64,000 nucleotides of DNA from Halorubrum sp. 2020YC2 (GTDB lineage Archaea; Halobacteriota; Halobacteria; Halobacteriales; Haloferacaceae), in assembly GCF_018623055.1 (NCBI RefSeq), contig NZ_CP076019.1:1178001-1242000 (forward strand). Direction: 5' to 3'. Below are positions 418 to 63,027 of this stretch, in pieces. A program made the position numbers and the translations under genes. Positions within the stretch are counted from its first letter, which is position 1; each line of letters starts with the position of its first letter. The notes under the pieces are model-generated. The model was not told the origin of the DNA, searched no databases, and saw only the letters and a list, made by a program, of their open reading frames with translations.

Positions 418-800
418 GGTGGCGCGTGCCTCCGAGTGGCCGCCGGAGGCGGCCGCGAGGAGCACGCGCGAGGGACGCGGTGAGCGCTCAGAGAGCGCGA
501 ACCGCGAGGCTGGGGAGGTGTGAGGCCGCGGTGCTGTGCGGTGCGGGAGGGACTCAAAGGGGCAGTCGCCGGCGGCTTCGCCGCCGGCTGCCAGAGACGC
601 GTAGCGTCTCGCTGCCGCGAGGGCGAAGCACGGCGCAGTAAGTACCGCAGCGAGGGAGCGACAGCGACCGAGCGAGGAACGCAGCAAGCCGCGCGAGCCG
701 TCGCGGCTGGGGCTTTGGTAGTGTTCAGCGTCGATCGGAAAGTAGTGACGTATAGCCGAGTGCTGGGGCCTTGGAGGCGTTCACCCGCGGCCCGCCGTCT
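418..800 (+). repeat. Dispersed structured intergenic element, copy A
   Basis: Blocks in order: GGTGGCGCGTGCC (418), a first stem GCGCGTGC (422-429) with GCACGCGC (462-469) around a variable hairpin, the conserved GAGGCTGGGGAGGTGTGAGG, a G/T-rich linker, then CTCAAAGGGGCAGTCG (about 552-567) pairing with CGGCTGGGGCTTTGG (about 705-719). The inner part holds the GCAGCGAGGGAGCGACAGCG type of repeat. The tail unit is present twice; the second has CTGGGGCCTTGGAGG near 762-776. A two-hairpin cassette is inserted in the 5' arm at 565-616. There is no convincing reading frame. I do not recognise a named family; a structured non-coding RNA or a non-autonomous mobile element are the main options. Confidence 0.8.
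565..616 (+). repeat. Two-hairpin cassette inside copy A
   Basis: Starts GTC, then hairpin 1 GCCGGCGGC-TTC-GCCGCCGGC (568-588), spacer TGCCA, and hairpin 2 GAGACGC-GTA-GCGTCTC (594-610). It splits the CAGTCGCGAGGGCGAAGCA block that is uninterrupted in copy E. Similar cassettes are in copies B and E at other positions. The hairpin 2 stem differs from that of copy B on both arms. Confidence 0.75.
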
Positions 801-16831: not shown

Positions 16832-19405
16832 TCAGTTGTCCGTCCGGAACTCGAAACGGGCGCCGTCGTCGCCGTCGATAGACATCTCCCAGCCGTGTGC
16901 GGCCGCGACCTCGCGCACGATCGCGAGCCCGAACCCGGTCCCGCCCGGCGTGCTCGACCGCCCGTAGCTCGTCGCCTCGTCCGGATCGATGTCGAATCCG
17001 GTCCCGTCGTCCGCGATGTAGAACCCGTCCGGGAGCGACCCCACGGAGACGGTGAGACCGTCGCCGGTCGAGCCGTGCTCGACGCTATCGCCGGGCTTCG
17101 CCCGACTGCCCGTGGAACCGTGTTCCACGCTGTTCGTGAACAGATTCTCGAAGAGCGTTCGGAGCCGCTCCGGGTCGGCGTCGACCGCGGACGTCGCAGA
17201 CGAGACATCGAGCGTCGCGCCCTCGGTGTCGACGGTCCGCCACGCCCGCTCGGCGGCCGCGTCGAGCGGAACGGACTCGATCTCGTCGACCGTCCGTCCC
17301 TGTCGCGCCAGCGCGAGGAGGTCGTCTATCAGTTGGGTCATCCGCTCGTGGGCGTCGCTGATCCGGTCGAGCTCGTCGAGGACGGCCGGGTCGTCGGTCA
17401 GCGACCGAGCCAGGTCGGTCCCTCCCGACGCGACGTTGAGCGGGTTCCGGAGGTCGTGCGAGACCAGCCCGGCGAACTTCTCTAACCGGTCGATCTCCCG
17501 CTGAAGGGCGGCGTCGCGGTCGCGTAGCTGTTCGGTCCGCTCGGCGTGGTCGAGCGCGACCGTGACGTTCGCGGCGAGGACGCGGGCCAGTTGGAGGTCG
17601 GTCTCGTCGAAGAAGTCCGGCTCGCGCGAGCCGAGCGGCATGACGCCGTGGTTCCCGAGCGGCACCGCGAGGAGGCTCCGGAGGTCGCCGTAGCCGACCG
17701 CGGTGTCGACCGCGTGGAGGTCGTCGACGACGACCGGCTGCCCGGAGTCGAACGCCTCCCAGACCCGGCCGTCTCCCGGCCCGAACGCCGGTCGGGCGCC
17801 GAAGACCTCGGTGGCCTCCTCGCTTATGGCCGTCGGACGGAGGACGTTCGCCTCCGGGTCGTACAGGCGGACGCCGCTGTTCGGGAACTCGAGGATGTCG
17901 ATCGCCGCGCGGGCGGCCACTCCGGCGATCTCCTCCCGGTCATCGCCGTCGAACATCCCTCGGGTCGTCGCGTGGAGCTTCCTGAGCGTCCGCTCGACGC
18001 GCTTCTGCTCGTCGATGTCGGCGTAGATGGAGTAGACGACCGACGCCTCCGGCTGGACGACGGGGATCGCGTGGAGGATGAACTCCCGGAGCCCGTCCGT
18101 CGTCCGTCGCCGGACGTCGAGCCGGGTCGGCTCGTCGGCGGCGATCAGCTCTTCGTGGTCGAACCGCGTCGGGTCGGGCGGGACGACCCCGTCGACCACC
18201 TCCTCGTACGCCGACGTCTCGGCGTCGTAGCCGAACGTCTCCAGGAAGGCCTCGTTCGTCTGCGCCAGCGTCCGCTCGCCGTCCGCGCCGACGACCGTCC
18301 GGGCCATCGGGAGCGGGAGGTTGTCGAAGAGCGCCGCCAGTCGGTCGCGCTCGGTCCGGAGCGCGGTCTCCGTCTCGATCCGCTCTATCGCGTTCGCGGC
18401 GTGTGACGCGATCAGCTCCGCGAACTCCACGTCGCGGTCGTCGAAGGCGGCGTAGCCGTCCGACACCGCCTGAAACACCGCGTACTTACCGATCGGTACG
18501 CTGATCGCGGACCGAACGTCGTCGGAGACCGGGTCCGCCACCGCGGTCGTGTCGAGGGAGTCGCGTCCGCCCACCCGGTAGTGGTCCGGGCCGCCGGAAG
18601 TCGAGGGCCCGGAGCTCGCCGGGTCCTCCAAGTCGTCCGGGTCCGCCGGGTCGACGCTGACGTTGTCCACCACGACGGTCCGCCGCTCCCGGGCCGTGTA
18701 GCCGACGATCCCCTCGTCGACGTCGAACGCGCGGATCTCGTCGGGCGAGACGCTCTCGGACCGGGCGGTCGGGACCAGTCGGTCCCCCCGGCGGCGGGCG
18801 ACGACGCACCGGTTGAACTCCAGGATCTCCTCGGCCGCGGCGACGACGCGGTCGGACACCGCCGACACGTCCTCGACCTCCGAGAGCTCGGTCGCGAACC
18901 GGTGGATCGCGGTGATCTGGTCGTTCACCTCGCGGAGGTCGCGCTCGGCGCGGCGGCGGCCGAGCGCGTTCGCGACGCTGTTCGCCAGCATCTCGTAGCG
19001 GTCCCGGCCGGCCCCCTTCTGGAGGTAGTCGGTGACGCCGGCCGTGATCGCCTCGCTCGCTATCTCCTCGCTCCCCTTCCCGGTGAATAACACGAACGGG
19101 AGTCCGGGGTCGATCGCACGGACCTCCTCGAGGAACTCGAGCCCGTCACAGCCCGGCATGTCGAAGTCGCTGACGACGCAGTCGACGCCCCCCTCGCGGA
19201 CCACGTCGAGCGCCTCGTCCGGCGACGTCCGGGTGACCGCCTCGGTGTCGTCCGCGAGCCGTTCGACGTGGGTCGCGGCGAGGTCGGCCGCCCCCGGCTC
19301 GTCGTCGACGAACAGGACGCGGCTTCCGGCGCCGTCGACCGGTCCCGACGCGTCGGGCGCGGCCGAACCGGCCTCGGACGGTGGATCGCCGGAACCTGTA
19401 TTCAT
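16832..19405 (-). CDS. Hybrid sensory histidine kinase (REC-GAF-PAS-GAF-HisKA-HATPase)
   Basis: An 857-residue soluble sensor kinase. The receiver domain (about 28-150) has RVLFVDDEPGAADLA and phospho-acceptor Asp80 in VVSDFDMPGCDGLEF. A GAF domain follows (about 165-345), then PAS (about 355-470: LFDNLPLPMARTVVG), a second GAF (about 490-640), HisKA with FAGLVSHDLRNPLNVA, and the ATPase domain with FENLFTNSVEHG, YIADDGTGFD and GTGFGLAIVREV. The N-box is odd: SVEHGSTG occurs twice, separated by a seven-residue linker (see the repeat at 17063-17131). No transmembrane segment is visible, so it probably senses an intracellular or redox cue. It may act on the adjacent winged-helix protein, but this is only positional. 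Confidence 0.9.
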   Translation of the reverse strand: MNTGSGDPPSEAGSAAPDASGPVDGAGSRVLFVDDEPGAADLAATHVERLADDTEAVTRTSPDEALDVVREGGVDCVVSDFDMPGCDGLEFLEEVRAIDPGLPFVLFTGKGSEEIASEAITAGVTDYLQKGAGRDRYEMLANSVANALGRRRAERDLREVNDQITAIHRFATELSEVEDVSAVSDRVVAAAEEILEFNRCVVARRRGDRLVPTARSESVSPDEIRAFDVDEGIVGYTARERRTVVVDNVSVDPADPDDLEDPASSGPSTSGGPDHYRVGGRDSLDTTAVADPVSDDVRSAISVPIGKYAVFQAVSDGYAAFDDRDVEFAELIASHAANAIERIETETALRTERDRLAALFDNLPLPMARTVVGADGERTLAQTNEAFLETFGYDAETSAYEEVVDGVVPPDPTRFDHEELIAADEPTRLDVRRRTTDGLREFILHAIPVVQPEASVVYSIYADIDEQKRVERTLRKLHATTRGMFDGDDREEIAGVAARAAIDILEFPNSGVRLYDPEANVLRPTAISEEATEVFGARPAFGPGDGRVWEAFDSGQPVVVDDLHAVDTAVGYGDLRSLLAVPLGNHGVMPLGSREPDFFDETDLQLARVLAANVTVALDHAERTEQLRDRDAALQREIDRLEKFAGLVSHDLRNPLNVASGGTDLARSLTDDPAVLDELDRISDAHERMTQLIDDLLALARQGRTVDEIESVPLDAAAERAWRTVDTEGATLDVSSATSAVDADPERLRTLFENLFTNSVEHGSTGSRAKPGDSVEHGSTGDGLTVSVGSLPDGFYIADDGTGFDIDPDEATSYGRSSTPGGTGFGLAIVREVAAAHGWEMSIDGDDGARFEFRTDN
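17063..17131 (-). repeat. Duplication with hairpin inside the kinase N-box
   Basis: Two diverged 24-bp copies encoding SVEHGSTG (17108-17131 and 17063-17086) flank a 21-bp linker containing the small hairpin CGGGC-TTC-GCCCG (17092-17104). The reading frame is kept. It looks like an insertion that duplicated its target; the copies differ mostly at synonymous sites. Confidence 0.65.
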
Positions 19406-36068: not shown

Positions 36069-36305
36069 GCCGGATCAAGCAGGTGAGTCGCAGCGCGAAC
36101 GGAGCGATCGTCTCACCGTGTTCGATCCGGCGTAAGCCGGATCGAGCCCGATAGACGGGCGCAGCGAGTCTATCGGTGTTCGACGAGGCGTAAGCGTAGT
36201 CAAGCGCGGAAATCTCCGATTTCCGCGGTTCGACGAAGCGTAGCTTCGTCGGGCAAGCGAATCTCCGATTCGCGTTGTTGGATTCGACGTAAGCTGGATC
36301 GAGCC
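36053..36305 (+). repeat. Array of alternating hairpins starting in the gnaD stop codon
   Basis: Five related units begin at 36053, 36120, 36178, 36228 and about 36278. The core is GTTCGATCCGGCGTAAGCCG followed by GATC(A/G)AGC: a stem with a GTAA or GTA loop. Between cores is a second, variable hairpin: GGTGAG...CTCACC, CCGATAGAC...GTCTATCGG, GCGGAAATC-TCC-GATTTCCGC and GCGAATC-TCC-GATTCGC. Units 1 and 2 are nearly identical in the core; units 3-5 differ, but their arms change in pairs (CGAAGC-GTA-GCTTCG in unit 4). The TAA of gnaD lies in the first loop. It may act as a terminator/RNA-stability element or be a mobile palindrome that multiplied. Confidence 0.8.
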
Positions 36306-36429: not shown

Positions 36430-36795
36430 ATTGCGGTGTTGCCGGCGGTTGTTTATAAGCGGCTGGCGCTGCTGCGGTGAACGTCTTCAAAGCCCCAGTC
36501 GCGACGGCTCGCGCGCCTTGCTGTGCTCCTCGCTCGGTCGCTGTCGCTCCCTCGCTGCGGTGTCGCCGGCGGCTTCGCCGCCGGCTGCCCGTGGCGCGTA
36601 GCGCCACACTGCTTGCTGCGGCGTGCTTCGCCCTCGCGACTGCCCCTTTGAGTCCCACCCCACCCCACCCCGCATCACCCCGCACCGCCCCGCACCTCAC
36701 GCCTCCCCAGCCTCGTCGCTGGCGGCTGGCGCCGCCAGCGACTCCCTCGCGGGCTGACTCGCGGCCGCCGGTGGCGGCCGCTCGCAGGCGCGCCA
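36430..36795 (-). repeat. Dispersed structured intergenic element, copy B
   Basis: Same block order as copy A on the minus strand: GGTGGCGCG-like start (about 36795), a P1-region hairpin GCGGCCGCC-ACC-GGCGGCCGC, GACGAGGCTGGGGAGGCGTG, a G-run linker, CTCAAAGGGGCAGTCGCGAG, and CGCGACTGGGGCTTTGAAG (about 36485-36503). The inner pair CAGTCGC/GCGACTG is fully Watson-Crick where copies A and E have a G-T wobble. P1 is weaker than in the other copies. Only one tail unit is present. A two-hairpin cassette is inserted in the inner GCAGCGAGG block. The TATA-like box is at 36807-36816. Confidence 0.78.
36562..36611 (+). repeat. Two-hairpin cassette inside copy B
   Basis: GTC, then GCCGGCGGC-TTC-GCCGCCGGC (36565-36585), TGCCC, then GTGGCGC-GTA-GCGCCAC (36591-36607). 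Hairpin 1 is identical to that in copy A; hairpin 2 has a different but still perfectly paired stem. Relative to the host element it is inverted and sits at a different place from copy A. Confidence 0.72.
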
Positions 36796-41319: not shown

Positions 41320-41765
41320 GCGGCGCGTGCCGGCGAACGCCCGAAGGGCGTGAGCCGCACGCGCGAGGGAGCGGTGAGCGAGGGGCGACCGAAGGGAGCC
41401 CGGAGCGAACCGCGAGGCTGGGGAGGTGTGAGGCTGCGGTGCTGTGTGGTGCGGGGTGGGACTCGAAGGGGCGGGCGCGAGGCGGGCGCAGGCGAAGGTA
41501 GGACCGCAGCGAGTGAGCGGAGCGAACGAGCGAGGACCGCCCCGAGCGTGCGCCCGCCTCGCGCCCGGGGCTTCGGGGGGGTTGGCGACAGCGGTGTCGA
41601 TCGCGTATTACCGAGCGCCCGGGGCTTCGGGGGAGTTGGCGACAGCGGTGTCGATCGCGTATTACCGAGCGCCCGGGGCTTCGGGGGGTTGGCGACAGCG
41701 GTGTCGATCGCGTATTGCCGAGCGCCCGGGGCTTCGGCGGAGTTCGTGACAGGTTATGCGTTAAA
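41320..41765 (+). repeat. Dispersed structured intergenic element, copy C (longest tail)
   Basis: Blocks: GGCGCGTGCC (41322-41331), hairpin ACGCCC-GAA-GGGCGT, GCACGCGCGAGGGAGC, GAGGCTGGGGAGGTGTGAGG, CTCGAAGGGGCGGGCGCGAG, the GCAGCGAGTGAGCGGAGCGA block, and GCGCCCGGGGCTTCGG. Here CAAAG/CTTTG of the other copies is replaced by CGAAG/CTTCG, and a perfect 19-bp inner stem starts CGGGCGCGAGG. The tail unit occurs four times at 41561, 41615, 41669 and 41722 (period 53-54). The TATA-like box is at 41284-41293. Confidence 0.8.
41561..41755 (+). repeat. 54-bp tandem tail repeats of copy C
   Basis: Four units start at 41561, 41615, 41669 and 41722 (spacing 54, 54, 53), the last truncated. Each begins GCGCCCGGGGCTTCGG and continues GTTGGCGACAGCGGTGTCGA, then TCGCGTATTACCGA. 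Every unit carries the 3' arm complementary to the single 5' arm CTCGAAGGGGCGGGCGC. Adjacent units are almost identical. Confidence 0.85.
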
Positions 41766-51993: not shown

Positions 51994-52370
51994 CGGTGGC
52001 GCGTGCCTGCGAGGCCCCCCGCGGCCGAGCCGCGAGGGACCGAAGGTCCCTCTGGAAGCCGGCGCTTCGCGCCGGCGACAGCACGCGCGAGGGACGCGGC
52101 GACCGGAGCAACGCGGAGGGAGCCGCGAGGCTGGGGAGGCGTGAGGTGCGGTTGCGGTGCGGTCGGGTGGGATTCAAAGGGGCAGTCGCGAGGGCGAAGC
52201 ACACCGACGTAAGCACCGCAGCGAGTGAGCGGAGCGAACGAGCGAGGAGCGCAACGAGGTGCGCGAGCCGTCGCGGCTGGGGCTTTGGAGGCCTTCACCG
52301 CCGATCCGCGATCAACTGTTTATAACCGAGCGGCTGAGGCTTTGGATATCTTCGTCGTCGCAGCGATGGC
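51994..52370 (+). repeat. Dispersed structured intergenic element, copy E
   Basis: Blocks: GGTGGCGCGTGCC (51995), P1 closing GCACGCGC after an inserted two-hairpin cassette, GAGGCTGGGGAGGCGTGAGG, GATTCAAAGGGGCAGTCGCG, the GCAGCGAGTGAGCGGAGCGA block, CGCGGCTGGGGCTTTGGAGG, and a second tail unit GCGGCTGAGGCTTTGGATAT. The TATA-like TTTTAAATA (51973-51981) overlaps the mvaD stop. The second unit is preceded by TGTTTATAACCGA. The 3' end runs up to the photolyase gene's end on the other strand. Confidence 0.8.
52034..52079 (-). repeat. Two-hairpin cassette inside copy E
   Basis: On the minus strand GTC, then GCCGGCGC-GAA-GCGCCGGC (52058-52076), TTCCAG, then AGGGACC-TTC-GGTCCCT (52035-52051). The layout (GTC-hairpin-TnCC-hairpin) equals the cassettes in A and B, but it lies in the P1 loop and its hairpin 2 stem is different. 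Confidence 0.6.
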
Positions 52371-62851: not shown

Positions 62852-62916
62852 CCGGGGCGGTGACCGAACCGGGAGCGAACGCGACCGCGGCGACGGGAGA
62901 AGAGAGGGCAGCGAGC

Positions 62917-63012
62917 GAGGCGGTTGGCGAGGCGACGGGGCGGCGGGCGAGGCGGTTGGCGAGGCGACGGGGCGGCGGGCGAGGCGGTTGGCGAGGCGAC
63001 GGGGCGGCGGGC
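62917..63012 (+). repeat. Three 32-bp tandem repeats
   Basis: Three exact copies of a 32-bp unit that starts GAGGCGGTTGGCGAGGCGAC and ends GGGGCGGCGGGC (62917-62948, 62949-62980, 62981-63012). They lie between the aldo/keto reductase and a small zinc protein. Exact identity suggests a recent expansion by slippage. Confidence 0.9.
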
Positions 63013-63027
63013 GAGAGCCGCGGGCGC

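Follow-up and report, generated by a model that had tools for sequence, protein, structure and literature searches.

A probable family of dispersed double-hairpin repeats in the N-box loop of haloarchaeal sensor kinases

The window, which is the whole stretch of 64,000 nucleotides of Halorubrum sp. 2020YC2 that was analysed (contig NZ_CP076019.1, positions 1,178,001 to 1,242,000), contains a hybrid sensor kinase gene on the minus strand. Its open reading frame (16832-19405) encodes 857 amino acids with response regulator, PAS, GAF, HisKA and HATPase_c domains according to Pfam. The HisKA and HATPase_c domains and the kinase fold were both confirmed for the host protein by Pfam and a structure model. 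The N-box region of the kinase on the minus strand is LFTNSVEHGSTGSRAKPGDSVEHGSTGDGL, and its protein reading is broken down as NSVEHG-STGSRAKPGDS-VEHGSTG. The minus-strand DNA of the repeated part is GTGGAACACGGTTCCAC / GGGCA / GTCGGGCGAAGCCCGGC / GATAGC / GTCGAGCACGGCTCGAC. The features of this locus are as follows.

16832..19405, minus strand: hybrid sensor kinase gene (open reading frame and Pfam domains)
17084..17128, minus strand: complete 45-nt unit composed of hairpin alpha, GGGCA, hairpin beta and GATAGC, encoding VEHGSTGSRAKPGDS
17112..17128, minus strand: hairpin alpha 1, GTGGAAC-ACG-GTTCCAC, encoding the VEHG taken as the true N-box, plus ST
17107..17111, minus strand: spacer GGGCA (family consensus NGGCA)
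17090..17106, minus strand: hairpin beta, GTCGGGC-GAA-GCCCGGC
17084..17089, minus strand: spacer GATAGC (family consensus GACAGC)
17067..17083, minus strand: hairpin alpha 2, GTCGAGC-ACG-GCTCGAC, opening a second, incomplete period (27.0 bits with covariance model R1)

The first-pass annotation of this DNA reported a VEHGSTG repeat in the kinase with a CGGGC-TTC-GCCCG hairpin in its linker. The repeat is real, and the DNA of 17043-17151 folds far beyond shuffled sequence (z = -4.77), with 0 of 200 dinucleotide shuffles folding as well. The linker hairpin is the core of hairpin beta read on the plus strand (17092-17104), and 6 of its 7 pairs are Watson-Crick when the flanking pairs are included. 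The description of a hairpin between duplicates was incomplete, since each VEHGST copy is itself a perfect 7-bp hairpin with an ACG loop, the second copy being encoded by hairpin alpha 2, and the linker is the third hairpin. The idea of a small palindromic insertion is borne out with amendments; the unit consists of two hairpins and not one, and VEHG belongs to the palindrome. The complete unit of 45 nt has the architecture of a 7-bp hairpin with a 3-base loop, NGGCA, a second 7-bp hairpin with a 3-base loop, and GACAGC.

The 13-mer CGGGCTTCGCCCG alone, with up to 2 mismatches, was not over-represented in the window (6 found vs 15.9 expected). A loop with a short stem alone therefore proves nothing, and the analysis was moved to hairpin pairs and then to a covariance model. 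The window holds 8 cases of neighbouring 3-base-loop hairpins with both arms of at least 6 bp, whereas 40 shuffles gave 0.35 on average and at most 2. A further 6-bp hairpin (GACGGT-GAG-ACCGTC, 17048-17062) adjoins hairpin alpha 2; it is absent from ortholog L066 and is probably host sequence.

The covariance model R1 was built from 32 kinase copies only. The complete unit at 17084..17128, which is itself among these training copies, scores 67.6 bits. Outside the kinase, R1 found three intergenic copies in the window, after which the next non-kinase match has an E of 0.007.

36559..36607, minus strand: intergenic unit copy (R1 39.3 bits, E 6e-10), GTGGCGC-TAC-GCGCCAC, GGGCA, GCCGGCGGC-GAA-GCCGCCGGC, GACACC
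52034..52082, plus strand: intergenic unit copy (R1 35.0 bits, E 1.2e-8), GAGGGACC-GAA-GGTCCCTC, TGGAA, GCCGGCGC-TTC-GCGCCGGC, GACAGC
562..610, minus strand: intergenic unit copy (R1 30.7 bits, E 2.2e-7), GAGACGC-TAC-GCGTCTC, TGGCA, GCCGGCGGC-GAA-GCCGCCGGC, GACTGC

The TTC/GAA loop had previously been noticed as common to the kinase linker and an intergenic cassette. This likeness is one of homology, because a model of kinase copies only matches all three intergenic places. In the whole genome, R1 gave 87 matches at E up to 10 and 58 at E<1e-3, a few of which are two strands or neighbours of one array. Among the 30 best loci, three are kinases (L095, L096 and L104) and 24 look intergenic, the contexts beyond the named proteins being judged by eye from open reading frames and not by gene prediction. 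The other coding loci among these 30 are a DUF7095 gene (L102) and a 5-FTHF cyclo-ligase gene (L105), both with the unit in frame. L110 (G000:C1:247311-247355) carries a unit in antisense orientation within a GH15-like gene. The hairpins of the intergenic array L098 correspond one by one to those of the kinase L104, the spacers are the same, and both loci have GAGGGAC as the arms of the second hairpin and ACCGGGC as those of the third. These results support the conclusion that the repeats form a dispersed family. Most of its members are intergenic and a few lie in frame in proteins, the kinase insert being one of these.

R1 matches were found in 75 of 99 genomes of the order. In a phylum sample of 120 genomes, 15 matched R1, each of them labelled as belonging to the same genus, family or order; 85 genomes without a match are not named individually. 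Other phylum members listed have far fewer first-look candidates, which suggests that base composition may contribute. In viral contigs, the exact pattern GAGGGAC-loop-GTCCCTC-TGGCA-NCCGG had 0 matches, and only that pattern is thereby ruled out.

At E up to 1e-100, the kinase is present in 47 of 52 genomes of the genus, and the site was read in 30 fetched loci. Eight of the 30 orthologs have no unit at the site (L076, L084-L087 and L089-L091), and the remaining ones carry one to three units, some of them decayed. The earlier proposal of a recurrent, tolerated kinase site is thus borne out, with 0 to 3 units in the orthologs read. In L077, the hairpin pair occurs without a second VEHG. In the later periods of L094, EGHSPS and EALRAS replace VEHGST, and the hairpins are still perfect. 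Across Halobacteriales, the pattern VEHG, 18-48 nt, VEHG was found in 159 of 392 genomes and 47 of 95 genera. The reversed control pattern in the same search gave 8 matches in 5 genomes. The duplicated VEHG in these 159 genomes confirms that similar inserts exist in other haloarchaeal kinases, as the first-pass annotation had supposed. Among the 150 matches listed, 53 rows have 45-nt periods and 83 have 48-nt periods.

The kinase-type hairpin together with its linker was also searched for in named genomes, and at least 117 stretches were found. Among the matches listed there are 80 loci, whose titles are those of haloarchaea or halophilic archaea except for one "uncultured archaeon A07HN63". 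These 80 loci hold 98 matches, comprising 84 kinase N-boxes recognised by script, 13 more recognised by eye, and 1 Rieske protein. A blastn search of the 3' part of the kinase against plasmids returned 29 records, and the listed ones are haloarchaeal. No paper on such inserts in haloarchaeal kinases was found in the open-access literature, subscription papers being largely outside that search.

The structure model of residues 630-857 has a mean pLDDT of 87.9, and its best relatives among solved structures are kinases of the HisKA type, ZraS and CpxA among them. The N-box helix corresponds to model residues 116-134 and ends with the first VEHG, and a strand starts from residue 156. The insert is modelled as a low-confidence coil with mean pLDDT values of 69 and 56 in two ten-residue blocks, so the first VEHG would be the working N-box and the second would lie in the loop. 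The extra residues would fall where disorder is predicted, in the loop that follows the N-box helix, leaving the ATP site intact. The insertion would be harmless to the kinase, since a length of 45 nt is divisible by 3, the reading frame is open and the loop is free. Two other kinases of the same genome (L053 and L054) have long inserts in the N-box loop without palindromes; either the loop tolerates other insertions or these inserts are decayed arrays.

The hairpins are kept at the level of DNA. Codon and pairing statistics were obtained from 150 rows of 59 genomes, among the matches listed; owing to kinship, these VEHG rows do not count as independent. In 126 of the 150 listed rows, the synonymous third positions of V, E, G and S are all paired, and the four fully paired combinations are nearly equally common. 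Alpha stems are perfect in 103 of 138 distinct rows, compared with a mean of 27.8 and a maximum of 42 in 1000 deals of the right arms among rows. The beta stems of the 48-nt class are perfect in 57 of 78 distinct rows (7.1 when dealt, maximum 16), and those of the second beta-stem set in 34 of 49 (5.1 when dealt, maximum 14). In the second hairpin of the 48-nt class, codon changes that alter residues are matched on the opposite arm, which is non-synonymous compensation. A Halorubrum-type set of 32 units (30 distinct) was taken from the kinase orthologs and two paralogs. In these 32 kinase units 94.8% of the cells pair, and sliding the partners by 1 to 3 columns abolishes the pairing signal. 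Both sides are changed in 56 cells of the 30 distinct units vs 17.8 in shuffles, none of 500 being as high. The hairpin totals from one count of orthologs include a few chance hairpins of the host gene, such as CGTGCTC-AGC-GAGCTCG, and hence were not used as rates.

These observations show a tendency of the unit to retain its hairpins where the encoded amino acids change. DNA hairpins were also looked for in the linkers of relatives, as had been suggested, and the palindromes are mostly kept while residues change. The reverse, a conserved protein without the palindrome, appears as an exception in decayed copies such as L069, L078, L088, L092 and L316.

Filled and empty sites are also seen in other proteins. 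The DUF7095 site was readable in 29 of 30 loci, of which 10 are filled and 19 are empty. The filled sites are larger by 45 nt in five cases and by 39, 42, 63, 66 and 69 nt in one case each, and the empty sites have short homology only (GAC). The 5-FTHF cyclo-ligase site was also readable in 29 of 30 loci, with 14 filled (+90 in seven, +45 in six and +57 in one) and 15 empty, and the empty sites of L141 and L143 already read GTCGACAGC. The in-frame copy in the Rieske protein belongs to Natrinema zhouii. Of 31 Rieske loci, six are empty at 54 nt and seven carry exactly 45 nt of unit-like insert; the unit-like inserts in L254, L316 and L317 differ from this length. Many of the remaining Rieske loci carry unrelated inserts, which indicates that this site is a generally tolerant loop. 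The empty L343 reads GACGGTGTCGAA and the filled L337 reads GACGGTGTCGAG...GACGGCGTCGAA; in the longer reading, they are GAGGACGGTGTCGAAGCG and GAGGACGGTGTCGAGCACGG...GGCCGACGACGGCGTCGAAGCG, respectively. The period in L337 is flanked by 12 nt that are already present in the empty L343, bar synonymous differences. Orthologs of four genes, including the kinase, thus show filled and empty sites.

The loops of the hairpins occur in both orientations. Seven intergenic cassettes are equal outside the loops at 42 or 43 of 43 core positions, and their alpha loops divide into six GAA and one TTC, their beta loops into four GAA and three TTC. These seven were chosen by a pattern that fixes the arms and leaves the loops open, and similar cassettes outside that pattern have other loops, namely GTA in L111 and TCC in L116. 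In favour of copying within a genome, two kinases of genome G280 share a 56-nt insert exactly, while the 240 nt upstream are 68% identical. Of 53 arrays, 50 have S or A before VEHG both in the N-box and in the inserted copy, and in 43 of these 50 the two residues are the same. This agreement is expected if junction homology guides copying, and kinship also contributes to it.

A simple tandem duplication of VEHG, which had been suggested as a duplicated target, was rejected. The V and E codons of the two VEHG copies both differ in 73 of the 150 listed rows and both agree in 37. A fresh duplication would make the copies agree, so a second cause is needed for the codon differences. It is suggested that identical direct repeats would be lost by slippage.

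The reading that we favour, and hold to be reasonably probable, is that of a dispersed double-hairpin family in the disordered N-box loop, maintained by template switching and spread by microhomology. Judged from the sequences, template switching in replication is the probable cause both of the upkeep of the palindromes and of their inversion, and microhomology is the probable route by which whole periods spread. A nascent strand that switches template inside a short hairpin during DNA replication would copy one arm onto the other and invert the loop. Through this arm copying and loop inversion, the palindromes would maintain themselves. Template switching between short inverted repeats is described as causing arm homogenisation and spacer inversion in the available text of PMC8604942 and PMC8794818. 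Whole 45-nt periods may be copied to new places via short homology to the period junction (RACRGCGTSGAR), and the N-box NSVEHG may offer this junction homology in many paralogous kinases. A more specific version is put forward only tentatively: a transposase-free, self-maintaining repeat that would spread by 45-nt periods, with the kinase N-box as its main protein-coding harbour throughout the haloarchaea.

Mobility by an enzyme would be the explanation if the unit were a non-autonomous element of the IS200/IS605 kind (HUH), similar to PATEs, with hairpin ends recognised by their shape and pasted behind GAC(AGC). The two hairpins per unit with conserved spacers would fit such an element, as would the sequence already present in the empty cyclo-ligase loci L141 and L143, and PATEs with near-terminal palindromes are known in haloarchaea from the available text of PMC3119063. 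The genome also has three Y1_Tnp matches, one with two internal stop codons. However, the best R1 match in these three loci is only 15 bits, the sequence of the arms is free to vary, no bulge interrupts the hairpins, and the unit measures only 45 nt. With R1, the only model applied, no good unit was found at the three Y1_Tnp loci of this genome, and no mobilising enzyme was found for the repeat. This explanation is considered unlikely. Selection on RNA, with hairpins acting in mRNA or small RNAs, for example in translation or mRNA stability, would explain the strong compensatory change, as it is known in structured RNAs. In contrast, G.T mismatches on the coding strand are not in excess over A.C mismatches (36 vs 28, p = 0.38), which gives no hint of RNA wobble. 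The family has copies on both strands, the copy of L110 is antisense to a coding gene, and the loops invert freely. Rfam at the gathering score returned nothing for the window and six loci but one tRNA at the edge of L254. A structured RNA was rejected on the lack of a G.T excess and of an Rfam family match, and selection at the RNA level is regarded as quite improbable.

Selection on the protein would make the palindromes a by-product of codon choice in a functional VEHGST...VEHG peptide, for example a flexible acidic lid. The peptide is well conserved in kinases of many genera, the N-box is under functional constraint, and arrays reach several periods, all of which is in favour of this explanation. 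However, synonymous sites covary, the arms change residues in concert, the EGHSPS and EALRAS periods of L094 keep perfect hairpins, untranslated copies share the same structure, and the unit is absent from eight of the 30 orthologs of this kinase. A purely protein-level repeat was rejected on the covarying synonymous sites and the similar untranslated copies, and we give this explanation very little credence. If the template-switching reading is true, the repeat would be a haloarchaeal counterpart of the coding palindromes of Rickettsia, order-wide and with a copy number that still varies between species, and would show a DNA-level repeat reshaping proteins in frame. It would also provide a natural setting, in archaea that are genetically tractable, to test whether palindromes can be maintained and spread by template switching alone. 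VEHGST repeats and covariation in kinase alignments would then reflect DNA mechanics and not kinase signalling.

The double-hairpin repeat works like the Rickettsia palindromic elements but is not one of them, being set apart by length, architecture and host. In the available text of PMC3767692, these elements (Ogata et al. 2000, cited there) are palindromic repeats found between genes and within intact open reading frames, and the segments that they encode are reported to be solvent-exposed. The haloarchaeal unit is likewise palindromic at the DNA level, with in-frame copies in open reading frames, intergenic copies, and empty sites in orthologs. However, the Rickettsia elements are described in that text as single elements of 100-150 bp in AT-rich bacteria, whereas the haloarchaeal period is 45 nt, a double hairpin of GC-rich archaea that occurs in tandem, has rewritten arms and prefers a kinase site. 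The mitochondria of Allomyces have double-hairpin elements (Paquin et al. 2000, cited in PMC7218506), which likewise carry two hairpins each and whose optional presence suggests mobility. These elements are mitochondrial, and they are not known to have in-frame coding copies or loop inversion.

PATEs of the IS605 type in Haloquadratum are, in the available text of PMC3119063, transposase-free palindromic repeats of a haloarchaeon without target duplication, as here. Their palindromes are related there to IS605 ends, whereas the R1 search gave no such link for the present unit. REP/RAYT sequences, in the available text of PMC3733652 and PMC12306157, are also short dispersed palindromes with many copies. 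They have GTAG/CGTC tags at the foot of the palindrome, whereas the present unit has the spacers NGGCA and GACAGC in place of such tags in the arrays read, and its copies also lie in coding frames, unlike those of REP/RAYT. Both signatures of template-switch hairpin maintenance given in PMC8794818 and PMC8604942 are seen here, although those texts, as available, describe it as a mutational process of RNA genes and of yeast genes and not of a dispersed repeat family. In Nematomorpha mitochondria, inverted repeats are kept in coding sequence together with protein function, as here, but according to the available text of PMC6649704 they are long palindromes of up to 284 bp in conserved protein regions and not inserted short units.

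Other repeats were observed in the window. At 36205-36273, three 3-base-loop hairpins lie in a row with TCC, GTA and TCC loops and the spacers GTT and GGCAA; they have no significant R1 match and are perhaps a related but distinct array. A larger GC-rich intergenic cassette (GCGAGGCTGGGGAGG...), in which some double hairpins are embedded, occurs at 497-547, 41405-41455 and 52118-52168. An intergenic direct repeat of approximately 54 nt with at least 3 copies (CCGGGGCTTCGGGG...) lies at 41565-41752, and a tandem repeat with a 32-nt period lies at 62897-63015.
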